A stretch of 64,000 bases of DNA from Candidatus Methanoplasma termitum (lineage in GTDB: Archaea; Thermoplasmatota; Thermoplasmata; Methanomassiliicoccales; Methanomethylophilaceae), in assembly GCF_000800805.1 (NCBI RefSeq), contig NZ_CP010070.1, forward strand, positions 620,001 to 684,000, written 5' to 3'. Numbering within the stretch: the first letter of the stretch is position 1; each line of letters begins with the position of its first letter. Made by a program: the position numbers and the translations under genes. This document shows, in pieces, positions 49,937-63,652 of this stretch. The notes below the pieces were generated by a model that ran no database searches, was not told the DNA's origin, and worked only from the letters and a program-made list of their open reading frames with translations.

Positions 49937-50005
49937 AACTTTATTTTCACAAAAATGAAAGGGTTTGAATAGGTTTGAAAAAAAGGGGCGATGCCCCCGG
50001 TTTGT

Positions 50006-51589
50006 TCAGTTCCCTGTTGTGACCTTCTCCATAAGTCCCTGAGAATCTTTGATCTCGGAGTCGGACATCTGGAGTTTGTTCTGTAATTGATACTCAGCGT
50101 GCTGGGACATACAATCCACATGCGCAACCAGTATACCTTCATCCGTTGCGACGAATTTTACCGTGATCGGGGTGCTTCTGTTGACACCTACTGGAAGATC
50201 CATCTCGAATTCTCCGACGCTGTATCCATCTATGAGCTCGATCCTCTTTCCCTCGTCGTTGTCTGATGCCGAGTTCTCGAATATCTCCACCTTGATGGAG
50301 GTCTGCCCGTCTTCGATGGGGTAGTATGTCTTGGTCTGTACGATGGGAAGGACCTTGTTCCTGAAGATAATGTTGGATATCATCTCTTTTCCGTCATCGT
50401 ACTGCGCCTTGATACCGAATGATTTACTCAGAACGTTATGGACGGTGATCTCTCCCTCTTTGGGAACGATCGTCTTTCCTGCAGCAACTGCTGCCGCCAC
50501 CTCGTCCGCGCCTACCCAGTTGTGGGACTTCGAGAATATCGCCGCGCCTTTTGCTATCGATTGGTCCGGATCGAACACCCTGACATTTGCCTCCGGATAT
50601 TTTTTAGAGATGCCGTTCTTTACCTGAGGCATCCTTGAGGAACCTCCTACCAGGATGAGGTCGTCGATGTCTTTCATTGTAAAGTTCTTTGCCGCAAGGA
50701 CCCTGCCTATTATTTCAATTGTGGTCTGCATAAGAGGTGCGGTGGCAGCCTCGAATTCCGCTCTCGTAATTGTATAGACAGCTTTCTTTCCTCCGACCGT
50801 GAGCGTTCCCTTCGTGGACTCTGCGGATGATAACCTCTTCTTGATCGTCTCCGAATCTAGTATCAGTGCCTGTTTCACGTCGTCGTCATCCTCGAGCTCG
50901 CTTCCGTCGATGCCGTTCTCCTCACATACCTTCTGTTTGATCAGCTTAATCAGTACCTGATCCCAGTCCTTTCCTCCGAGGAGTCTTTCTCCGTCGGTGG
51001 CAACCGCAGTGAATGCATTGCCGTTTATATCCAGAATGGTAACATCGAACGTTCCGCCACCCAGGTCATAGATCATGACCCTTTTCTTCTCCCCTCCGCC
51101 TGCGCCGAATCCGAATGCGATCGCTGCTGCGGTAGGCTCGTTGATTATGGTCACTTCCTCGAGGCCGGCGACCTTTCCTGCGGTTTTTGTTGCATCCCTT
51201 TCATTCTGCCCAAAGTATGCGGGACAGGTGATCACCGCTCTCTTTACTTCAACGCCGTGGTTGTCATTGAAATCGTTGATCATTTTCCTGAGTATCGCTG
51301 CGGATAATGTAACGGGAGTATACTTGTCCCCGTCGATGTCCACTTCATAGTCGGTGCCTATCTGTCTCTTTATGGCTGTAACGACCCTTTCCAATGGATA
51401 CATTATCGCCATGTCTTTTGCGGGCGAACCGACTATTATCTCTCCGTTCTCATTGAAAAGTATGACCGAGGGCGTTGTGTCCTCCTGCTCAAAATTTTTC
51501 TCAACTACCGGGTCTCCGTCTTCGTTTATGTACGCAAGGCACGAGTAAGTCGTACCGAGGTCGATTCCGATCACATATTCATTGCTCAT
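50006..51589 (-). CDS. Hsp70 (DnaK-type) lacking the C-terminal lid
   Basis: 527 residues, about 100 shorter than DnaK. The ATPase domain is intact: VIGIDLGTTYSCLAYI, VITCPAYFGQNERDATKTAG, INEPTAAAIAFGFG, YDLGGGTFDVTILD, LVGGSSRMPQV. Then a beta substrate-binding domain (NVLSKSFGI...NKVLPIVQTKTYYPIEDGQTSIKVEIFENSA) with only a short tail in place of the helical lid. Loss of the lid usually means fast, low-affinity client exchange or a specialised partner. Last gene of a five-gene leftward operon; overlaps the GrpE-like gene by 4 bases. It is not the housekeeping dnaK, which should sit with grpE and dnaJ elsewhere. Confidence 0.9.
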   Translation of the reverse strand: MSNEYVIGIDLGTTYSCLAYINEDGDPVVEKNFEQEDTTPSVILFNENGEIIVGSPAKDMAIMYPLERVVTAIKRQIGTDYEVDIDGDKYTPVTLSAAILRKMINDFNDNHGVEVKRAVITCPAYFGQNERDATKTAGKVAGLEEVTIINEPTAAAIAFGFGAGGGEKKRVMIYDLGGGTFDVTILDINGNAFTAVATDGERLLGGKDWDQVLIKLIKQKVCEENGIDGSELEDDDDVKQALILDSETIKKRLSSAESTKGTLTVGGKKAVYTITRAEFEAATAPLMQTTIEIIGRVLAAKNFTMKDIDDLILVGGSSRMPQVKNGISKKYPEANVRVFDPDQSIAKGAAIFSKSHNWVGADEVAAAVAAGKTIVPKEGEITVHNVLSKSFGIKAQYDDGKEMISNIIFRNKVLPIVQTKTYYPIEDGQTSIKVEIFENSASDNDEGKRIELIDGYSVGEFEMDLPVGVNRSTPITVKFVATDEGILVAHVDCMSQHAEYQLQNKLQMSDSEIKDSQGLMEKVTTGN

Positions 51590-52443
51590 TTTTCCTCATC
51601 TCCTTCTGCTTTTCCATTTCCATTTCCAGAATATCTGTAGATCACTACTTTCTCTTTCAAGAGAACGCGTCCTTGGTACACGTACCCGTCCGACACCCTC
51701 TTTGCTATCATACCGTTCATTACTTCATCGCCGGTGGGTATGACATCGACGATTCTTTGGTTCATTGTGTTCAGTTTATCGAACTTGCTGGGCCCGATCT
51801 GCACGCCGCAGTCTATCAGGATATTCTCCATATCAACACCGTACGCTTCGAACGAACTCAGCACATCCTTTGCTGAGAAACTGTCCAGCTTAGTGTTAAT
51901 TCCCGCGCAAAGTTTGAAGAAATCCTCTCTCATTGCAGACAGCTGCTCGAGCATGCCTATGAACTTTCTGTTGGCAAGTTCGGTGTCCCTTCTGCTCACG
52001 ACCGCAGAGTATTCCTTCAGTTGATCTTTTGTTGTTGTGTATTTTCCCAACTCAGATGTCAGATTCTCGATCTTTTTTTCCAGCTCGCAGATCCTATCAT
52101 AGTTTGACGGTTCGGGTCTTTGTATCACACCGGCATTGGATTGTTCAGCTGCGGTGCCGGCTTCTGCGGCGGGAGGCTGCGCCTCCGGCTGCGGAACGCA
52201 TGCCGGGGGGATCACAGACGCGGGAGGCTCCTCTTGTAACGGTTCCTCGGTCACATCTTCGATGACAATTGTCTCTTTTTCGAAAAATAACTCGGCTTCC
52301 TGCGGTCCTTCAGCAATGTACGCTTCTTTCTGAGGCTTTTCTCCCTCGCCAAGCTCACGTTCATCGCCTTTTGTGTCAACGGAACCTGTGACTAGGAAGT
52401 TCTTTAATTTGGCGGTCTTGTTGGATATCTTCTTCTCGGTCAT
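51586..52443 (-). CDS. GrpE-like nucleotide-exchange factor with disordered N-terminus
   Basis: 285 residues. The first 110 are acidic, Pro/Glu/Ala-rich and probably disordered (EEPPASVIPPACVPQPEAQPP); about 110-165 is a coiled coil (RICELEKKIENLTSELGKYTTT); the end has the GrpE beta-domain signature VDVIPTGDEVMNGMIAKRVSDGYVYQGRVLLKEKVVIY. GrpE dimers release ADP from Hsp70; here the partner would be the lid-less Hsp70 downstream or the Hsp70-vWA protein. Divergent enough that a simple search might miss it. Four-base overlaps with both neighbours. Confidence 0.8.
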   Translation of the reverse strand: MTEKKISNKTAKLKNFLVTGSVDTKGDERELGEGEKPQKEAYIAEGPQEAELFFEKETIVIEDVTEEPLQEEPPASVIPPACVPQPEAQPPAAEAGTAAEQSNAGVIQRPEPSNYDRICELEKKIENLTSELGKYTTTKDQLKEYSAVVSRRDTELANRKFIGMLEQLSAMREDFFKLCAGINTKLDSFSAKDVLSSFEAYGVDMENILIDCGVQIGPSKFDKLNTMNQRIVDVIPTGDEVMNGMIAKRVSDGYVYQGRVLLKEKVVIYRYSGNGNGKAEGDEEK

Positions 52444-53708
52444 CTTTTCTTCTCCTCCAGACTCTCACAGTTCAGAAGCCATATGAATGGGTCTTCGACG
52501 CGCATTGGGGATATTCCTCTGGTCAGAACATTTCCCGTAGGGTTGCTGCCGAGTGCCGATACCGCAAAATACGAGTGTTCCTTGAACTCCTTGACGGTCT
52601 GTATAAAACCCTTTGACACTGCTCTGCGCATATATTCCTCGATCTCGGCACTTATCTGTTCAAAATTGGTCCTATCGAACTTTCCTTTCTCTCTCTCAAT
52701 GTTCAGTGATGAGTTGGGGCCGAACAGTATGCTGCTCTCTTCATCATTCTCGGGGGCTTTCATGAGAACATCGGCCTTTGTGAGAACAACCGCCAGCGGT
52801 ATCTGTATCTGTTCTTTCATTCTCATGGAATTGTTCGTTCTTATTATGTTTGTGATATCGGAAAGCATGTTGGCAACGTTTGCTCCGACGGGGGGCTTGT
52901 TGTCCATGCGTATCCTGTTGTTGATGTAAGGTATCTGGAGCGGATCGACAAGGAACACGATGCCTGATGCCCTTGATATGAATGAATTTAGGTTCAGACT
53001 CATCATCTTGTTCGTGGAGTCCATATCCTCCCCGGCAGTGTCGAAGAACGCCAGTGTATACACACGGGGAGAATCCCCGCCCAGGAACCTGAGATAATAT
53101 ATCATCGGCTCCCTTGATTCTCTGCTTTGTTCGAAAGAGAGAGTCGGCGAAAGTTTCCTTCCTTCTTCGAACAGTCTCTTGTAATACATGTCTCTGTACT
53201 TCAGAGTAGTACGGTCGGTGGCGGGACTCATTGTGGCTCCGAACTCCGGAGAGAATGAGTTCCTCAGTTGATTTATCAGCACTGCGATGTAATGGCTTTT
53301 TCCTACACCTTTCGGCCCCAACACTACGAATACGGTACTCCCTTCTTCCTCCGCTCCCTGCGGAATAGGGTTGTGGCAACCCGGACATAGTCTTTTATAG
53401 ACCGGTTTTTTACAAATATCGCATATCCCCGACGCATTCCTTATGATGTGGTACTTCGTTGTCACGGGCGACAGGCCGGCCGGATCTTTCCCGAGGAAGA
53501 TCGAGTTCTCCGGGTCTATCTCCTCGTCTATATTTTTGGATCTGTACTTACGTGCGGTCTTTTCATCAAGTTCCCTCAGGAACATCTTAGTGCATGCCGG
53601 GTTCGTGCACTGATAATGTATGTCTTTCAGATCTACCGAGGCAAAGCAGAAAGGGCATGTGTATTTTGATGAGTGGGGGTGTGTTTCTATTTCCTGTTTC
53701 TTTGCCAT
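52440..53708 (-). CDS. Zinc-ribbon TRAFAC-type GTPase of a chaperone-linked system
   Basis: 422 residues. Two N-terminal zinc ribbons (Cys18, 21, 34, 39 and Cys96, 99, 108, 111), then a P-loop GPKGVGKS (131-138), a switch II-like LAFFDTAGEDM, and an NKxD-like LTKADVLM with a SALGS segment (FAVSALGSNP) like the G5 SAK/L motif. This is the arrangement of Ras-like GTPases of the 'double-GTPase' kind encoded in bacterial conflict and regulatory operons; that family name is from memory. Distantly similar to the membrane GTPase at 46605. Five bases behind the 1006-residue gene and overlapping the GrpE-like gene by 4. Confidence 0.8.
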   Translation of the reverse strand: MAKKQEIETHPHSSKYTCPFCFASVDLKDIHYQCTNPACTKMFLRELDEKTARKYRSKNIDEEIDPENSIFLGKDPAGLSPVTTKYHIIRNASGICDICKKPVYKRLCPGCHNPIPQGAEEEGSTVFVVLGPKGVGKSHYIAVLINQLRNSFSPEFGATMSPATDRTTLKYRDMYYKRLFEEGRKLSPTLSFEQSRESREPMIYYLRFLGGDSPRVYTLAFFDTAGEDMDSTNKMMSLNLNSFISRASGIVFLVDPLQIPYINNRIRMDNKPPVGANVANMLSDITNIIRTNNSMRMKEQIQIPLAVVLTKADVLMKAPENDEESSILFGPNSSLNIEREKGKFDRTNFEQISAEIEEYMRRAVSKGFIQTVKEFKEHSYFAVSALGSNPTGNVLTRGISPMRVEDPFIWLLNCESLEEKKR

Positions 53709-53712
53709 GTTC

Positions 53713-56700
53713 TCATCTCTCCTTGTTAAGCGGGTGTATGAATTTGAACCCGTTATAGTCCTCTTCCTTGGGGAAGAAAAGCCTCGTTTTGTTGATGTCT
53801 ACTTTGTCTTTCACAATGAACGTCACGACCGCCTTCCCAGATGTGAGTGGAATCGGCTTGATGGAGGACCATATCGATTCTCCGTCGTTGATCTTAAGCG
53901 GTATCCCTTCTTTGACTGCCACTGCCGTTATGGGGGGGAGTTCCTTTGCACCATGTTCAACAGTTATGCTGAGCGCGATCTTCGTCCCCATATTCGACTC
54001 TCCTTCGACCGCCATGGAGTACCGGACCTTGCTGGAGGCGCCGGAATAAATATCCAGCGTCATACCGCGGGACGGCATCTTCTCTCCCGAAACATCGTAC
54101 ATGGCATATATCGTGACGACCCTTTTTTTAGAGTTGCCCATGGGTATCCTGACCATCTTGTCTTTGTTGTATCCTTCACGGGTGATCGTTATCCTTTCTG
54201 CATCCATGTCGTCCGGTCCGGTCGCTACGGATGAGTCCTTTATCACGAACACTGCCATTTCCGCACCGTTGGGCCAGGTCATTGTGATGTCGCAGTCGTT
54301 TCCACTCATGGTCTTCAGAACATCTCTGAAGGGTTTCAGATTGGCAACCATGATGTCTTTTCCTCTGACAGCCACCTTTCCGGCCGGTATCATCGGATAA
54401 ATGTACTGCACAGCGCCGTCAGGCAGGAGGAACCTCATTCCGTTCTCGTATGACTCCAGAGGTTGTATCTCTTTCATCCATGCATTGAGGTCATCGACCC
54501 TGACGGTCCTTCCGAACATGTTGACCTTTTTAGGGGAAGAATAGAGCACCACTTTCTCTTTTCCTTTCCATTTTGCCGTGAATGAACCGTCAGCTTTGTT
54601 CCATCTGATCTCCATGTCCCTTACTGGCTCCGGAAGTTTTGTGGTTGTGAATGAGAAAGCATTTCCCATCGATCTCTCGATGCGCCCTTTATTTTTGTAT
54701 TCGGCAACGAAAAGATAGTGGTATTTCACTCCTCCTTTCAACCCATAATCATCGATTACATTGCCGCCATCGTGCATGATCTCTACTTCCTCTCCCGCAC
54801 CGGCCGCAGATGTGCCCTCTTTTCTCCATACACGCACTTTCGAGCTGCCTTTTGGTTTCTCATAGATCAGTCGGAGTCCGCCCTCGATGGGTTCAATACT
54901 TACATTTTCGACCTCTTTAAATACCATTATAGGACCGCATGACGCTGCTTCTCTGGAAAGTATCCCCCACCTTTTCGAATAAATTGAATAATAAACGTCA
55001 ACGCCGGGGTCCATGGTCTTGTCCAGGAAAACGCTTCCGGGTATCTCTGTCAACGGGACAGTATCATCTGTGACCACCGGAAGGGAGTCTTTTCCTCTGA
55101 ATATGCAGAAGGTCATGCCCGTTCTTTCCTCGGGAACCGCGAATTTTATCAGCGCTTTCCCTTCTCTCACCTGAACTGTCGCATCTGCCGGCGATTCAGG
55201 AGGATGCTCCTTCATTTTTGCTTTGGCGACAGGATGGTCCGGGCATATCTCTACCGCCGTCACATACATCATCATGATGTTGCTGTGGTCCTTCGATGCT
55301 GCCGCACGTCCGCAAATGCCGTCCGCTTCGGTTATCTTCTGTACCGCCTCATCGTACTTCCTTTCGATGTCCGGGTTGTTCAATATCTTTGTGAAATCCA
55401 GTTTTGAATCGTCTATTGTGCTCCTGAGTGCATAGAACTTCCTTTGCTTGTAAAGAAGGTCGATAGAGTTGATCAGTTCCGCATACTTTGCTGAAAGGGG
55501 CTTAAGATCATTCTTCATCCCGGGTATTGCCGGATATGTGGAGTATATGCGCTCTATCTTCGCTATGCAGTCAGCAGCCTCATCCACCATCCCATACGAC
55601 ATTGCTATCCTGAACTTCTTCTCGAGGTCCTTCGCTTTATTGAACCCATCCTGGAAATCAAATCCGCATTTTATGCATGCTTTGTTCCCCGATGTCTGCA
55701 CGGTCCCGCACTGGGGGCACTTGGTCTTTATGCTCGCTCCGCAGACCGAGCAGCACATTATATTATCGCCTGTCTCGACAAGAGCATCGCAGTATACGCA
55801 CGTGGTGAGTTTGCTTTCTTTGGATGAGAAGTTCGCGAGATATTTCTTCTTCACGCAGTAATCTTCCAATATGGCAACCGCCATTTGCGGGTCGATGTTG
55901 GTGTTGCGGACAAACTTGTTGATCATATCGTCTATGTATTCTCTTGTGAAGGGTTGGCCGTAATCCTCGTCCATCATCTGCTTTGCAGGGCCGAGTACTC
56001 TCATGCATTTACCGTATTTCACAAGATTAGAAAGCTCATGATCGGAACTGAGAAGGAGTTTGAGCGACCTTAACGTCTGGATGTACGAATCTTGATTGGG
56101 GAGCACTTCTTGTCTTACGGTGCCCACTCTCTTTTCACATGCTTCGAAGGATGCCCTTATCTGAGTTAAAGAACTGCCTTCGTCAAGCGGGCTGATATTT
56201 ATCTCGAGATCTTGGTTCCCGATAAGGTCATTGAGGACGTCCATCGGAGTAAAAGATTGAACATCCTGAAGCGCTTTGAAGGCAGATATCACTTTGTCGC
56301 TGACCACAGGTTTTGCCGAGATGTTCTTGATGCCTGCCAGATTGATCATGTCGTCCTTGCTTACACCGTCCCACTGGAGCTTTTTTATAAAGTTCTCTGC
56401 GGTGCCCGGTAAAAGCATGCGGTTTCCGTCATGGAGTATTATAGAATCCCTGTTCAGCCTTGTTGCCTTGGCTTTGAGTATCTTCTTTCCCGCTTCAAAC
56501 TCTTTGGACCTCAGGACAGGATCCTTCATGACGCGATACATATCGGGCACCATGTCCAACCATGTGCCGATCAGGAACCTGCGGTCAAGATCGTTCTGTT
56601 TATCTTTACTCTCTTTTTTCCACTTGCCCTCTTTGGCGGCGATCTTCTTCTCTATCGCGTCGTAGGTGTACGTACTCTCTTTGAGAGGATTCAGACCTAT

Positions 56701-56733
56701 CAGGCGACAGTAATTCTCTCTGTCCTCGGCCAT
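53713..56733 (-). CDS. Giant multidomain protein: J-like N-terminus, zinc ribbons, helical repeat, Fn3-like modules
   Basis: 1006 residues. About 1-95 resembles a degenerate J/DnaJ-like helical module (YCRLIGLNPLKESTYTYDAIEKKIAAKEGKW...VPDMYRVMKDPVLR) without HPD. A helical region to about 310 is followed by two or three zinc ribbons (CVYC, CCSVCG, CPQCG, CIKCG, about 313-360), then TPR-like helices (360-490). The C-terminal half (about 510-1006) is several beta-sandwich, fibronectin-III-like repeats (VSIEPIEGGLRLIYEKPKGSSKVRVWRKEG). No signal peptide. It most likely bridges the Hsp70s and a client. Second gene of the operon, 11 bases after the Hsp70-vWA gene. Confidence 0.75.
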   Translation of the reverse strand: MAEDRENYCRLIGLNPLKESTYTYDAIEKKIAAKEGKWKKESKDKQNDLDRRFLIGTWLDMVPDMYRVMKDPVLRSKEFEAGKKILKAKATRLNRDSIILHDGNRMLLPGTAENFIKKLQWDGVSKDDMINLAGIKNISAKPVVSDKVISAFKALQDVQSFTPMDVLNDLIGNQDLEINISPLDEGSSLTQIRASFEACEKRVGTVRQEVLPNQDSYIQTLRSLKLLLSSDHELSNLVKYGKCMRVLGPAKQMMDEDYGQPFTREYIDDMINKFVRNTNIDPQMAVAILEDYCVKKKYLANFSSKESKLTTCVYCDALVETGDNIMCCSVCGASIKTKCPQCGTVQTSGNKACIKCGFDFQDGFNKAKDLEKKFRIAMSYGMVDEAADCIAKIERIYSTYPAIPGMKNDLKPLSAKYAELINSIDLLYKQRKFYALRSTIDDSKLDFTKILNNPDIERKYDEAVQKITEADGICGRAAASKDHSNIMMMYVTAVEICPDHPVAKAKMKEHPPESPADATVQVREGKALIKFAVPEERTGMTFCIFRGKDSLPVVTDDTVPLTEIPGSVFLDKTMDPGVDVYYSIYSKRWGILSREAASCGPIMVFKEVENVSIEPIEGGLRLIYEKPKGSSKVRVWRKEGTSAAGAGEEVEIMHDGGNVIDDYGLKGGVKYHYLFVAEYKNKGRIERSMGNAFSFTTTKLPEPVRDMEIRWNKADGSFTAKWKGKEKVVLYSSPKKVNMFGRTVRVDDLNAWMKEIQPLESYENGMRFLLPDGAVQYIYPMIPAGKVAVRGKDIMVANLKPFRDVLKTMSGNDCDITMTWPNGAEMAVFVIKDSSVATGPDDMDAERITITREGYNKDKMVRIPMGNSKKRVVTIYAMYDVSGEKMPSRGMTLDIYSGASSKVRYSMAVEGESNMGTKIALSITVEHGAKELPPITAVAVKEGIPLKINDGESIWSSIKPIPLTSGKAVVTFIVKDKVDINKTRLFFPKEEDYNGFKFIHPLNKER

Positions 56734-56744
56734 CGGTCACATCC

Positions 56745-58823
56745 TCAGCGGAGCCTTCCCTTGACTTCTGCACTACCAAGCCTTCCCATGCTTTCACCCG
56801 AGCTCTCACGCATCCCCATTGAACCTGAGTTAAGTGCTCTGGCTATCTTACTGAACGATTCGCCCAAACGGTCAAGCGTGGTGAACATGGCGCCTTCTTC
56901 GACCGTAGATATCTGCTTCAGGAAGCTTATGTCCGCCTCGCCAATTCCTAAACCAACAACTGCCACGTTAGCATTCCTGCAGGAAAGTGCTTCGCTTACC
57001 GCAAAGTCCCTCTTTCCCCATATGCCGTCGGTAAGAATGACTATCATCTTGCCTCCGGGACGGTTGGCCATCATTGACATCGCAGTACCCATCGGGCTTG
57101 CGTCCGTCCCTCTTCCATACACGTTGACCTTAAGGCTGTCGAGAGCAGTGATGATTGTATTTGTGTCACCGGTCATGTCTCTCATGATACCGACCTTGTC
57201 GCCGAAACCGATTAGACCTATCTTTGTGTTCTCGTCCGCTGCCGCGATAACGAAGTCACGGATGTGGTTCTTTACCTCTTCGAGGGAATTCCTCATACTT
57301 CTTGAAAGATCGATGCACAGTACCACATTCTTCATTACTGGGCCGCCGGTAGTGTTGGCGCTCGGAGATCCGCCCATCCACGATATATCCTCGGGAACCG
57401 GCTCGGAAACGACCTCCAGACGCTCTCCGTCCTGATAAGCGGACACTTTTACCACACCATTCTCGTCGTAGGTATATTCGATATCTATCAAAGCGCCGTT
57501 CCCGTCGTTGTAGAATCCCGTGATAACGACTTTTGCGAGAACATAGCAGTCCAGCGGGATCTTGCTCTCCCCCTGAAGTGTATAGACCTCTATCACATCT
57601 GTCGGATTACCGGGGCTTATCTTGAATGGCTTCTTGACCGATGACGGAACTTTGGAGTTCCTTTTGATCATTATCTCGTTGATGTATCTGTCCCCTCCGG
57701 GACTTTCAGCCAAAGCACCGAGGCTGTGGGCAGTAACATCTGCTATCTGAACCTCTCTTACCCCCGTATGCGTGCCGCAATACAGCTCAGCTGTAATTGC
57801 CGCGCCTTTTGCGACGGCCAGGTCGGTGTCGGCATGATCGATCACAGGTCTGCCTGAGACCATTTCTAAGAATTTAGGTACCTGAGGCATCCTTGTGGAT
57901 CCTCCGACAAGCAAGATCTCGTCCACATCTTTCCAGGATTTTCCCAGATCATTGAACAATTTCATGCATACATCGTTAGTCGCATTGAGGAGGAACTGGG
58001 TCCTCATATCGAATTGCTCTCTCCTCAATACATACTTCCCGGAATAGCCTTCATATTTTATCTGGATCGCTACGCTGTCTGATTTGGTAAGAACTTTTTT
58101 GTAATTCTCCGAGGCAACGATGAGCTCATTCTTTGCTGACTCATCGTCTCTCGGATCCACGCCGAACTCTTCAAGGAACTGTTCGCATGCGAACTTAACG
58201 ATCGTCGCATCCCAGTCCTTTCCTCCGAGAAGGTGGTTGCCGTCCGTCCCTATGACCTGTATGTTGCCTTTGTTTATCTTTACAAGCGTCACATCGAACG
58301 TCCCGCCGCCCAGATCGTACACGAGCACGGTCTTGTTGGACTCTCTGGTGTACCCATAGGATATGGCGGCGGATGTGGGTTCGTTTATGATCTTCATCAC
58401 CTTAACGCCGCACGCTTCTCCTGCACGAATGGTCGCTGTCCTCTGGAAGTCGTTGAAGTACGCCGGGACGGTGATTACGACAGAATCGATCTTCTCCTTT
58501 ACTTTCGCTTCCGCGTCAGTTATCAGCTTTTTGAGAAGCATCGCAGAAAGATCCTCTGCGGTATACACCTTACCATTTGCTTCAACAGTAAAACTGTTGT
58601 CGCCCATGCCGCGTTTGAAAGACGCCGCAATTGTGCCTGCGCCTCCAGCCTGCATGTCTTTTGCATCTTCTCCGATCAAAATCTCTCCGTTATCCAAGAA
58701 ACAAATTACTGAGGGGGTCAACTCCTTTTCGAATTGGTTGTTGATCACTTCGGGCCGAGATGTTTTCTTGTCATATCTTGCAACTGTAGAGTACGTTGTT
58801 CCCAGGTCTATACCGACTTTCAT
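56745..58823 (-). CDS. Hsp70 fused to a von Willebrand factor A domain
   Basis: 692 residues. An Hsp70 ATPase (about 1-375: KVGIDLGTTYSTVARY, VITVPAYFNDFQRTATIRAG, INEPTSAAISYGY, VYDLGGGTFDVTLV, LVGGSTRMPQVPKF) and beta substrate domain (about 385-490) are joined to a vWA domain starting near 497. The vWA MIDAS is complete: Asp505-x-Ser507-x-Ser509, Thr573 in GRGTDASPMG, Asp599 in LTDG. The tail is Ser/Gly/Met-rich and probably flexible. The fusion replaces the Hsp70 lid, suggesting metal-dependent client or partner binding. First gene of the five-gene operon with a TATA box 31-44 bases upstream. Confidence 0.93.
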   Translation of the reverse strand: MKVGIDLGTTYSTVARYDKKTSRPEVINNQFEKELTPSVICFLDNGEILIGEDAKDMQAGGAGTIAASFKRGMGDNSFTVEANGKVYTAEDLSAMLLKKLITDAEAKVKEKIDSVVITVPAYFNDFQRTATIRAGEACGVKVMKIINEPTSAAISYGYTRESNKTVLVYDLGGGTFDVTLVKINKGNIQVIGTDGNHLLGGKDWDATIVKFACEQFLEEFGVDPRDDESAKNELIVASENYKKVLTKSDSVAIQIKYEGYSGKYVLRREQFDMRTQFLLNATNDVCMKLFNDLGKSWKDVDEILLVGGSTRMPQVPKFLEMVSGRPVIDHADTDLAVAKGAAITAELYCGTHTGVREVQIADVTAHSLGALAESPGGDRYINEIMIKRNSKVPSSVKKPFKISPGNPTDVIEVYTLQGESKIPLDCYVLAKVVITGFYNDGNGALIDIEYTYDENGVVKVSAYQDGERLEVVSEPVPEDISWMGGSPSANTTGGPVMKNVVLCIDLSRSMRNSLEEVKNHIRDFVIAAADENTKIGLIGFGDKVGIMRDMTGDTNTIITALDSLKVNVYGRGTDASPMGTAMSMMANRPGGKMIVILTDGIWGKRDFAVSEALSCRNANVAVVGLGIGEADISFLKQISTVEEGAMFTTLDRLGESFSKIARALNSGSMGMRESSGESMGRLGSAEVKGRLR

Positions 58824-58853
58824 ATCCCATCATACGGAGGTAGCGCACACGCG

Positions 58854-58867
58854 TATAAAATATATTT
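58854..58867 (-). promoter_or_regulatory. TATA box of the Hsp70-vWA operon
   Basis: TATAAAATATATTT on the plus strand (AAATATATTTTATA reading leftward) lies 31-44 bases before the ATG at 58823; the predicted leader is only a few bases. Confidence 0.6.
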
Positions 58868-59001
58868 CCCATGGCGCTACGAAAATCGAAATCAGAATTA
58901 AGCCGACAGATTAATTTTTTAAATTTCGGTTTTGAGATTACGAAATTCGTAGTCGTTCGTTCCGACCGATGCCAGACGTGCTATCCTCATATGCCAGATG
59001 T

Positions 59002-59681: not shown

Positions 59682-61367
59682 GTGAGTCAATTGATGGATG
59701 ACATCCAGATTGCGGAAGCGGCCAACGCAAAAAATATCATTGAAATCGCAAGATCTATAGGTCTCAGCTCTGAGGACATCGAACAATATGGGAAGTATAT
59801 AGCAAAGATTCCGCTTGATGTTCTCTCAAGGTTCGATAAGAACAAGAACGGAAAACTTATCGTCGTAACAGCGGTGACCCCTACTCCGGCAGGAGAAGGA
59901 AAGACCGTCACGACCATCGGCCTGATACAAGGTCTCAGCCATATAGGGAAAAAGGTCGTAGGCGCGCTCAGGGAACCATCCATGGGCCCTACGTTCGGTG
60001 TTAAAGGGGGAGCGACGGGGGGAGGTTACTCTCAGGTCTATCCTATGTGGGATATCGACCTTCATTTCACCGGTGACATACATGCGGTCTCATCTGCCCA
60101 CAATCTGCTGTCAGCAATCCTGGAGAACAATCTCGTAAGAGACAATCCTCTGATGATCGATCCGTCGAGGATAGTTCTGAAAAAAACGATGGACATGAAC
60201 TGCCGCGAGCTCAGACAGATCATTGTAGGCCTCGGGGGGAGCAGGTCCTCCGGAGGTGTTATGCATGAGAGCGGATTCCTTATCACTTCCGCCTCGGAGA
60301 TATCTGCCATTCTTGCTCTTGCTACCAGTTACAGCGACCTCAGAGAGAGATTAGAGAAGATGGTCGTTGCTTACACATACAAGAACGAGATGGTGACCGT
60401 CAAAGACCTTGGATGCGTCGGTGCGATGATGATATTGCTCAAAGACGCACTCAAACCCAACCTCGTCCAAACGCTGGAAGGACAACCGGTGTTCATTCAC
60501 GGATTCCCCTTCGCGAACATAGCGCATGGTAACAACAGTGTGATCGCAACCAAATACGCAATGAAGCTCGGCGACTATGCTGTCACGGAGGCGGGATTCG
60601 CCGCCGACCTCGGAGGAGAGAAGTTCCTGGACATTGTTTGCAGGCAGGCGGGGATAGCACCCGATTGCGTGGTCATCGTTGCTTCCATCAAGGCACTGAT
60701 GACACACGGAGGAGGAAAGCTCGAAGAACCCGAGACCCTGACAAAGGAGACGCTGGTAAGAGGCCTGTCGAACCTTGACAAACACATCAAGAATCTCAAG
60801 AGCTACGGTGTGCCTGTGGTCGTTTCGATCAACCACTTCTCATTCGACGATCCGGAGCATATGCAGATACTGCGCGATCACTGCAAGGATCTGGGTGCGG
60901 AATGCGTACAATCCGATGCCTTCATGGAAGGCGGAAAAGGAGCGGAAGAACTGGCCAGAAAAGTTGTGGAAGTTATCGGAAAGGTCAAACCGAAATTCAA
61001 AATGCTGTACGCAGATGATGTTCCGCTCAAGGATAAGATCGAGGCGATCGCGGAGAAGATATACGGAGCGGACGGAGTGATATTTTCTGTTGCGGCAGAG
61101 AGTACACTTAAGACCCTTGAGGAGAAAGGGTATGGAAAACTCCCAATTTGTGTTGCAAAGACACAATACTCCCTTTCTGATGTAGCTGAACTTAAAGGTG
61201 CACCGAAAGGCTGGAAGCTCAATGTGAGAGAAGTGGCTTTGTCGGCGGGAGCCGGGTTCGTCGTTCCGATCTGCGGTACAATGACACTCATGCCGGGACT
61301 GTCGAAGACCCCTGCCGCCATGAAGATGGATCTTACCGAGGACGGAAAGGTCAGAGGGCTGAAATAA
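59682..61367 (+). CDS. fhs: Formate--tetrahydrofolate ligase
   Basis: 561 residues (GTG 59682 or ATG 59694), the usual 556-residue size. P-loop-like TPTPAGEGKTVTTIGL (70-85), the folate and formyl-phosphate segments LREPSMGPTFGVKGGATGGGYSQV, DMNCRELRQIIVGLGG and TPAAMKMDLTEDG at the end. It makes 10-formyl-tetrahydrofolate from formate and ATP. Most methanogens use tetrahydromethanopterin instead; folate-type C1 genes in this order are attributed to bacterial transfer. No folD or other folate gene is adjacent. Convergent with the Sel1 gene at 61351, overlapping it by 17 bases. Confidence 0.97.
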   Translation: MSQLMDDIQIAEAANAKNIIEIARSIGLSSEDIEQYGKYIAKIPLDVLSRFDKNKNGKLIVVTAVTPTPAGEGKTVTTIGLIQGLSHIGKKVVGALREPSMGPTFGVKGGATGGGYSQVYPMWDIDLHFTGDIHAVSSAHNLLSAILENNLVRDNPLMIDPSRIVLKKTMDMNCRELRQIIVGLGGSRSSGGVMHESGFLITSASEISAILALATSYSDLRERLEKMVVAYTYKNEMVTVKDLGCVGAMMILLKDALKPNLVQTLEGQPVFIHGFPFANIAHGNNSVIATKYAMKLGDYAVTEAGFAADLGGEKFLDIVCRQAGIAPDCVVIVASIKALMTHGGGKLEEPETLTKETLVRGLSNLDKHIKNLKSYGVPVVVSINHFSFDDPEHMQILRDHCKDLGAECVQSDAFMEGGKGAEELARKVVEVIGKVKPKFKMLYADDVPLKDKIEAIAEKIYGADGVIFSVAAESTLKTLEEKGYGKLPICVAKTQYSLSDVAELKGAPKGWKLNVREVALSAGAGFVVPICGTMTLMPGLSKTPAAMKMDLTEDGKVRGLK

Positions 61368-62049
61368 CTTCGGCATCTTCCATAGCATACCAACGTTCCG
61401 CTTCATCCTTATCTACGGGAACACCGTCCCCCATTTCATACATGTTACCTAAAAGGATCTGAGCGCCCCTGTGTCTGTTCATTGCCGCGGAAGTGAGCCA
61501 GTTCAGGGCTTTATCGATATTCTTTTCAACGCCGTATCCTGTTTTATACAGCTGTCCGAGCACGAACTGTGCTTCCGAGTGTCCCGATTCAGACGCAGAT
61601 GTGAACCATCTGACCGCGGCGTGAAGATCTTTCTCTGTGCCGCCGCCGTCGAAGTATATCAATCCCAGTTCATATTGAGCGCGCGGGTCGCCCATAGTTG
61701 CCGGCGTATTCAGAAGCTCAATGGCTTTTTTGATGTTCTTCTCGACCCCGTATCCCTTGCTGTACATTTTTCCTAAGAAGTACATGGCGCCAAGATTGCC
61801 GTCTTTTGATGCGAGCTCGAACCAATGTTTGGCCGCAGAAAGATCCTTTTTGACCCCCTGGCCTCTCGAATATATCAGGCCGAGATAGAATTCCGCATCG
61901 ACCGATCCTTTGTTGGCTTGTGCTGAGAGTATTGAGAACGCACTTGCGTAGTTCTTTTCAGACCTGGTCCTTATTATAAATTTGGCCCATTCCAACGGTT
62001 CCATCTGACTTTCAAACGGAATGCCGGAATCCTCATGCATGGACAGCAA
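61351..62049 (-). CDS. Sel1-repeat protein (about five repeats)
   Basis: 232 residues. After a short N-terminal helix, Sel1-type repeats of about 36 residues follow: AEFYLGLIYSRGQGVKKDLSAAKHWFELAS, AMYFLGKMYSKGYGVEKNIKKAIELL, AQYELGLIYFDGGGTEKDLHAAVRWF, AQFVLGQLYKTGYGVEKNIDKALNWL, AQILLGNMYEMGDGVPVDKDEAERWY. Sel1 repeats form a TPR-like superhelix for protein binding. No signal peptide, so cytosolic. One of three Sel1 genes in this corner of the window; it starts divergently from the next. Confidence 0.92.
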   Translation of the reverse strand: MLSMHEDSGIPFESQMEPLEWAKFIIRTRSEKNYASAFSILSAQANKGSVDAEFYLGLIYSRGQGVKKDLSAAKHWFELASKDGNLGAMYFLGKMYSKGYGVEKNIKKAIELLNTPATMGDPRAQYELGLIYFDGGGTEKDLHAAVRWFTSASESGHSEAQFVLGQLYKTGYGVEKNIDKALNWLTSAAMNRHRGAQILLGNMYEMGDGVPVDKDEAERWYAMEDAEVISAL

Positions 62050-62185: not shown

Positions 62186-63652
62186 ATGCCCTCGGAAAGG
62201 TATGACGGCAGTTTTTCAGAAGCACGTTCGCACATGGACTGCGCATCGTCGAGATACGATCTGAATAAAGCAGCTGAAATGCTTGAGAGGTTGTCCTCCG
62301 AAGGCAACGGCGCAGCTCAATACCTTTTTTCCCTTTTCTTATTGACGGGGACATCTGTTCTGAAGGATAACGTAACGGCAACGGACCTGCTGGTCCTTTC
62401 TGCGGCGTCCGGAAATGAGGATGCGATCATACTGAAGGACGAGATCGATAAAAACGTCAACGCCGCTGAACTCGACAAACTCATTTCACTTAAATTAAGG
62501 GGTGAACAGAGGAACACAGATGCATGCAGGGAGCTGTTCGATATCTACACCGAAGGAAGACCCCCCGCGAAGAAGAACCACCGCGTTGCGATAAAATGGT
62601 ACACTATCTGCGCAGAAGAGGATGATGTATTCGCACAGAACACAGTAGGATTCATGTATCTGATGGGGAAGGGCGTCAGCAAAGACAAAGATAAAGCTGT
62701 GTTCTGGCTGAAAAAAGCGGCTGAGAACGGCAGTGCCGATGCTATGTACCACATGGGGGAAATGTACGAGACGGGGCTTTGCTTTACCGAACCAGATATC
62801 AAGCAGGCGCTTATATGGTATCAGCTCGCCGCGGAAGCCGGCAGCGCAGATGCCCAATATTCTCTCGCTGCCATTCACTCTGTCCAAAAAACAAGACAAT
62901 TCGACCCCGCAAAGACCGTTCACTATCTTGAAAAAGCCTCTGCACAGGGACACGGTGAGGCACAATATCAGCTGGGAATGATGTATGCCTACGGCAACGG
63001 TGTGAAACGGAATGAAGAAAAGGCCGTGAGTCTACTGGAAGCCTCTTGCAGGTCCGGATTCCAACAGGCGATGGTAGATTATGCGAACATGAGATTCGAG
63101 GGAGATGTCCTGAAGAGGGACCCTGCGATCGCCGCCGAATGGTTTGAGAAGGCGGCCGCATCATGCAACGGTTACGCACAATACGCTCTTGCCGTTATGT
63201 ATGGGAACGGAGATTACTACAATAAAGACGATAAAATGGCCGTCAAATACTTCACCGAGGCTGCGGAGATGGGGGAGGTCAACTCTCAATACAGCCTCGG
63301 CTGTTTCTACTATGAAGGGAGGGGAGTGGAAAAAAGCGAGAAGGATGCCGCACTGTGGTTGGGGCAGGCTGCTGAACAAGGACACCCGGGCGCAAAAGCA
63401 TTCCTCGGAATGCTTACGATCAACGGCAGAGGTGTGGAACAGGATATTGACGAGGGCATGAGGCTTTTGAACGAATCCGCAGATTACGGATACTTCGAAG
63501 GACAATTTTACCTCGGAAAGATCTATATGGAAGGCAAGATCGTAAAGAGAAACATACCGCGTGCGAAAAAATATCTTTCGATGGCGGCAAAACAAGGAGA
63601 TCCGGATGCGAAAAAACTCCTTGAAAAAATAAAAACTGAGAGGATGCATTGA
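62186..63652 (+). CDS. Sel1-repeat protein (about ten repeats)
   Basis: 488 residues. Repeats run almost the whole length, for example AQNTVGFMYLMGKGVSKDKDKAVFWLKKAAENG, AMYHMGEMYETGLCF, AQYQLGMMYAYGNGVKRNEEKAVSLL, AQYALAVMYGNGDYYNKDDKMAVKYF, SQYSLGCFYYEGRGVEKSEKDAALWLGQAA, GQFYLGKIYMEGKIVKRNIPRAKKYL. Cytosolic scaffold-like protein of unknown partner. Two bases separate its stop from the start of the next Sel1 gene, so the two are co-transcribed. Confidence 0.93.
   Translation: MPSERYDGSFSEARSHMDCASSRYDLNKAAEMLERLSSEGNGAAQYLFSLFLLTGTSVLKDNVTATDLLVLSAASGNEDAIILKDEIDKNVNAAELDKLISLKLRGEQRNTDACRELFDIYTEGRPPAKKNHRVAIKWYTICAEEDDVFAQNTVGFMYLMGKGVSKDKDKAVFWLKKAAENGSADAMYHMGEMYETGLCFTEPDIKQALIWYQLAAEAGSADAQYSLAAIHSVQKTRQFDPAKTVHYLEKASAQGHGEAQYQLGMMYAYGNGVKRNEEKAVSLLEASCRSGFQQAMVDYANMRFEGDVLKRDPAIAAEWFEKAAASCNGYAQYALAVMYGNGDYYNKDDKMAVKYFTEAAEMGEVNSQYSLGCFYYEGRGVEKSEKDAALWLGQAAEQGHPGAKAFLGMLTINGRGVEQDIDEGMRLLNESADYGYFEGQFYLGKIYMEGKIVKRNIPRAKKYLSMAAKQGDPDAKKLLEKIKTERMH

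Follow-up and report, generated by a model that had tools for sequence, protein, structure and literature searches.

The window, a stretch of 64,000 nucleotides from the complete genome (1,488,669 bases) of Candidatus Methanoplasma termitum, contains a five-gene operon that is rather likely to be an archaeal variant, lacking GAP1, of the HSP70 theme described for bacterial DO-GTPase systems, and to encode a probably domesticated, GTP-switched Hsp70 machine for assembly or remodelling. DO-GTPases were defined by Kaur, Burroughs, Iyer and Aravind (eLife 2020, PMC7159879), who regard the bacterial sets as predicted conflict systems, and a previously unassigned archaeal operon is now tied to this predicted class. 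The first-pass annotation of this DNA had put the five genes forward as an undescribed system, which we reject because that paper already describes the same set in bacteria and names the DO-GTPase family. The operon, its flanking signals and a second GTPase gene nearby are as follows.

58851..58870, minus strand: TATA-like candidate promoter element before the first gene (sequence reading)
56745..58823, minus strand: Hsp70-vWA fusion, 692 aa (Pfam HSP70 2e-105, VWA 7e-14)
53713..56733, minus strand: giant, putative scaffold protein, 1006 aa (Pfam: weak double zinc ribbon only)
52440..53708, minus strand: soluble DO-GTPase, 422 aa (Pfam DO-GTPase2, PF19993, 6e-11, above cut-off)
51586..52443, minus strand: GrpE-like putative exchange factor, 285 aa, fast-evolving (Pfam GrpE 1.5e-6, above cut-off)
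50006..51589, minus strand: second Hsp70, 527 aa, without helical lid (Pfam HSP70 2e-92)
49984..49998, minus strand: intrinsic-terminator-like hairpin and T run past the last gene, GGGGGCATCGCCCCT followed by TTTTTT
46605..48104, plus strand: second DO-GTPase, predicted to be membrane-anchored, 499 aa (DO-GTPase2 3e-5, below the curated cut-off; hydropathy)

The five reading frames lie on the minus strand with junctions of +11, +4, -4 and -4 bases in operon order, exactly as annotated before (overlaps of 4 bases and gaps of at most 11), and the TATA box given as the start of the operon corresponds to a TATA-like stretch, aaatatattttata, that closely precedes the first ATG (58823). The terminator-like hairpin at 49998-49984 is right past the last gene, so the five-gene unit is well bounded. 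Genes with SEL1 repeats flank the operon at 61351-62049 (minus strand) and 62186-63652 (plus strand), and, as a raw count, 20 of 52 archaeal loci (L091-L142) have a SEL1-repeat family close to the operon.

The full-length giant is present in 27 of 81 sampled genomes of the order, all of them in the family that includes Ca. Methanoplasma and its relatives (27 of the 36 sampled), whose records are labelled Methanomethylophilaceae or Methanomassiliicoccaceae, and the operon is in none of the sampled genomes of five sister families. The genes for the Hsp70-vWA fusion, the giant, the soluble DO-GTPase and the second Hsp70 keep their order and orientation in all 26 main-lineage loci (L034-L059). Co-occurrence in other genomes had been named beforehand as the point on which the idea of a common system would stand or fall and, as this conserved arrangement indicates, the five families do recur together and in the same order. 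Where dN/dS could be computed (dS is saturated in several comparisons with the window genes), it is 0.02-0.12 for most of the operon genes, while the giant reaches 0.17 and the GrpE-like gene 0.2-0.3, and the operon is under purifying selection. Because the unit recurs across the family and dN/dS is about 0.02-0.3, it is not a product of chance; a fortuitous neighbourhood of chaperone-like genes with no common function is refuted for practical purposes by the gene order, identical in every main-lineage locus examined, and by full co-occurrence in distant bacterial phyla. Three of the 26 loci, all of genus g4, gave no match to the GrpE-like gene, and in loci of the g4 type it has apparently been lost. 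In these loci (L045, L046, L047, L122, L124 and L127) about 75 bases separate the genes for the DO-GTPase and the second Hsp70.

The two Hsp70s differ from each other in the way that had been noted, one being fused to a vWA domain with an intact MIDAS and the other lacking a lid, and here the Pfam matches and the MIDAS alignment agree. In the fusion the Hsp70 ATPase and the beta substrate-binding part occupy residues 1 to about 470, and the vWA domain (499-649) is found where the helical lid is expected, with a complete MIDAS in the alignment (D505, S507, S509, T573 and D599). The lid is missing in both proteins, with Pfam HSP70 coverage extending no further than positions 490 and 509 of the 599-position profile; the second Hsp70 is the one that reaches position 509, so that the beta substrate-binding part is present and nothing follows it. 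Both keep the ATPase motifs IDLGTT, NEPTAA/NEPTSA, DLGGGTFD and GGS[TS]R. An Hsp70 whose lid is replaced by a vWA domain, common to archaea and to bacteria of five phyla (see below), raises a testable question about how release of Hsp70 substrates is controlled. In one close relative the second Hsp70 is broken into two reading frames (L034:8887-10470), by a frameshift, gene decay or an assembly error.

The divergent GrpE is likewise confirmed, with a match to PF01025 of 28.5 bits against a cut-off of 25.8, and has homologues in loci L061 (3e-10) and L157 (3e-12). A canonical GrpE-DnaK-DnaJ cluster is encoded in the same genome (C1:1,053,465-1,057,007), about 0.38 Mb from the operon, in agreement with the proposal that the operon is distinct from the housekeeping DnaK, and literature on the chaperones of gut methanogens mentions only housekeeping dnaK, dnaJ and grpE. 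The operon shares with that housekeeping system the logic of Hsp70, J protein and GrpE; it differs in its lid-less Hsp70s, in a J-like start without the HPD motif and in the addition of GTPases and a vWA domain.

The giant consists, in order, of a J-like segment (1-95), a helical part, two zinc ribbons (312-356) with eight invariant cysteines, TPR-like helices (360-507; profile match to the TPRs of OGT, 4e-7) and Fn3-like modules from 512 to near the end (fibronectin profile 3e-4; Foldseek E 1e-11 on the predicted structure). The zinc ribbons and Fn3 modules of the first-pass annotation thus stand, whereas the degenerate J-like start is weakly supported. Comparison of residues 1-95 with J domains by HHalign gives a weak match (P 2e-5, probability 76), the best Foldseek match is a J domain but also weak (E 0.46), and there is a profile match to DNAJB8 (E 0.053); however, the HPD motif is absent from the window's giant and from its archaeal relatives. 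We therefore reject a canonical J protein, and as the J-like start is without HPD, stimulation of Hsp70 by the giant may be absent; of the three roles said to be represented here, those of Hsp70 and exchange factor have their domains, and that of the J protein has only this degenerate segment. An AlphaFold model built with 26 sequences has a mean pLDDT of 86.8 but a pTM of 0.41, so that the individual domains can be trusted but not their arrangement relative to one another. Bacterial homologues align over the whole length of the giant. NCBIfam has no match for the giant, the soluble DO-GTPase or the GrpE-like protein.

The soluble GTPase is a zinc-ribbon P-loop GTPase as annotated, and its PF19993 match places it in the DO-GTPase2 family. 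Its motifs (P-loop GPKGVGKS, DTAGE and TKAD) are invariant or nearly so, and the cysteines of the N-terminal zinc-ribbon clusters (C18, C21, C34, C96, C99, C108 and C111) are invariant; no solved relative was found in the PDB. The list of five parts drawn up earlier is correct as far as it goes but overlooks the second DO-GTPase at 46605-48104 (TM-GTPase), in which hydropathy shows four hydrophobic N-terminal segments followed by cysteine clusters and the GTPase domain, and no C-terminal transmembrane segment. Of the 27 genomes that have the giant, 19 also have a member of the TM-GTPase family, against 0 of the 54 genomes that lack the giant. Linkage of the TM-GTPase gene to the operon is seen in the window's genus, in genus g6 and in one g3 genome; in g5 the gene is located elsewhere, and in g4 and most g3 genomes it was undetected. 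It is likely that the TM-GTPase belongs to the system despite its opposite transcription. As it was undetected in those genomes, and the GrpE-like gene in g4, neither is strictly required.

These GTPases bear on a second explanation, that the operon is an ordinary but specialised chaperone set, analogous to DnaK/DnaJ/GrpE and serving particular proteins, with the GTPases as passengers. The presence of Hsp70, J-like and GrpE roles and the retention of ATPase motifs in both Hsp70s would fit such a set, but we consider it improbable, as the DO-GTPase is inside a tight operon and is kept in every main-lineage locus examined and in the bacterial counterparts, family genomes without the giant have no DO-GTPase2 match, and canonical DnaK, DnaJ and GrpE are already provided elsewhere in the genome.

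The HSP70 theme of GAP1-N2-type systems, as given in PMC7159879, comprises a zinc-ribbon DO-GTPase, an HSP70, a GrpE, a second HSP70 without a peptide-binding domain, and an FNIII protein that carries a DnaJ or TPR fusion; where there are two GTPases, one has four N-terminal transmembrane segments and one C-terminal one. The defining partner is GAP1, a proposed sensor-coordinator, and the role published for such systems is itself a prediction. By their predicted domains, all five parts of the operon match this description; the likeness extends less certainly to the TM-GTPase, which has the four N-terminal segments but no C-terminal one. A scan of named genomes, with parts read using profiles built here, identified eight bacterial loci with the Hsp70-vWA fusion (one confirmed with Pfam), in Azospirillum, Phaeospirillum, Thiomargarita and Alkalihalobacterium and in metagenome-assembled genomes (MAGs) of Lachnospiraceae, Desulfobacterales, Tannerellaceae and Ardenticatenales. 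In bacterial loci of five phyla the GrpE, Hsp70, Hsp70-vWA, giant and DO-GTPase are together with GAP1 and/or a TM-GTPase, and GAP1-N2 was confirmed by Pfam in all six bacterial proteins tested. As bacterial sets with the Hsp70-vWA fusion exist, the window's operon belongs to this kind. A weak match to the STING ligand-binding domain, below the cut-off (E 0.0044), was seen in one bacterial GAP1 (L163:10133-12574).

There are nonetheless several departures from the theme as far as that source describes it. The gene order in the window is rearranged, with the GrpE-like protein and the second Hsp70 at the operon end; the second Hsp70 lacks the lid alone and keeps its beta substrate-binding part; the TM-GTPase is 1.9 kb off, in opposite orientation and without the C-terminal transmembrane segment; the Hsp70-vWA fusion is without mention in the available text; and GAP1 is missing from the genome. 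A mobile neighbourhood with variable effectors is also expected of the theme, whereas in the main archaeal lineage the gene content does not vary and is conserved, with no recognised effector. A further comparison, made by text alone with the description of the CoCoNuT systems (eLife 2024, PMC11090510), shows a likeness in proteins with Hsp70-like NBD/SBD and vWA domains accompanied by a GTPase, but there the GTPase is McrB-type, of an unrelated family, and there are nucleases and no GrpE.

One of these departures is that of GAP1, which the first-pass annotation, correct about the five genes present, was in no position to see. The window's complete genome has no match to PF20013 and none to full-length archaeal GAP1, and GAP1-N2 was not found in 94 of the 102 family genomes searched; there were seven clear matches, all in genus g5, and one weak one. 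In one sister genus there are divergent second copies (L060, L061 and L085-L089) that have the five families and TM-GTPases, and that differ from the window's operon in that GAP1-N2/GAP1-M adjoin their GTPase; the proteins of L060 and L061 are only 22-43% identical to those of the window. In the GTPase tree, which has a midpoint root only, the archaeal sequences form one clade (100/99) with both GAP1-bearing and GAP1-less branches. This, together with the presence of GAP1 in nearly all bacterial counterparts, suggests that GAP1 was lost in the main archaeal copy. GAP1, thought to be core, can therefore be missing while the remaining parts stay under selection. Two Bacteroidota MAGs (L156 and L162) with isolate names matching those of termite-gut archaeal MAGs also carry DO-GTPase systems, but the tree places their GTPases apart from the archaeal sequences, so for these two loci a recent bacterial donor is rejected.

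A mechanism can be proposed from the domain assignments. As scaffold and sensor, the giant would bind the client through its Fn3 and TPR parts and dock the Hsp70s at its J-like start. In the Hsp70-vWA fusion, where the metal-binding vWA domain takes the position of the lid, ATP would drive the binding and release of a client or partner, and the lid-less Hsp70 and GrpE-like factor would drive the nucleotide cycle. The soluble DO-GTPase may pair with the four-TM DO-GTPase, with GTP binding at the membrane starting assembly or disassembly and hydrolysis stopping it. With its five genes and one TM-GTPase, this naturally reduced version is expected to lend itself to reconstitution more readily than the bacterial ones.

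The regulated chaperone or assembly machine suggested earlier, possibly for conflict, agrees with what the literature proposes for the set, although that interpretation is only partly supported overall. It could still be an active antiviral conflict system, as proposed for the bacterial versions, with the Fn3/TPR giant as sensor of an invader, the DO-GTPase pair as switch and the Hsp70 assembly as effector. The description of the bacterial relatives as conflict systems, the patchy distribution within the family (27 of 36 genomes) and the second copies in one genus are consistent with this. We nevertheless regard it as unlikely, though less so than a plain chaperone set: the proposed sensor-coordinator is missing, no effector is recognised (as judged by recognisable domains only), the giant is colinear along its length, under purifying selection and not hypervariable, no defence-system model in PADLOC scores above chance, and none of 26 pattern matches in viral contigs is a relative. 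We favour a domesticated role in stress or complex assembly over active conflict, because GAP1 appears lost, the copy is widely kept, no effector is recognised, and the components are conserved and non-hypervariable; a counterpoint is that roughly one in four of the sampled family genomes lacks the operon. A more specific history is offered tentatively, as somewhat less likely than not: the ancestor of this gut-methanogen family would have acquired a bacterial-type conflict machine, which then lost GAP1 and was domesticated to a fixed assembly or stress machine in which the vWA domain is a substitute Hsp70 lid.

Single in-frame TAG codons occur in the giant, GAP1 and TM-GTPase genes of some relatives (L056 near 7493; G070:C54:57632-59968; G075:C38:19589-21076). 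Pyrrolysine use is known from this order of methanogens, which makes these codons candidates for read-through, and they may alternatively reflect pseudogenes or assembly error.
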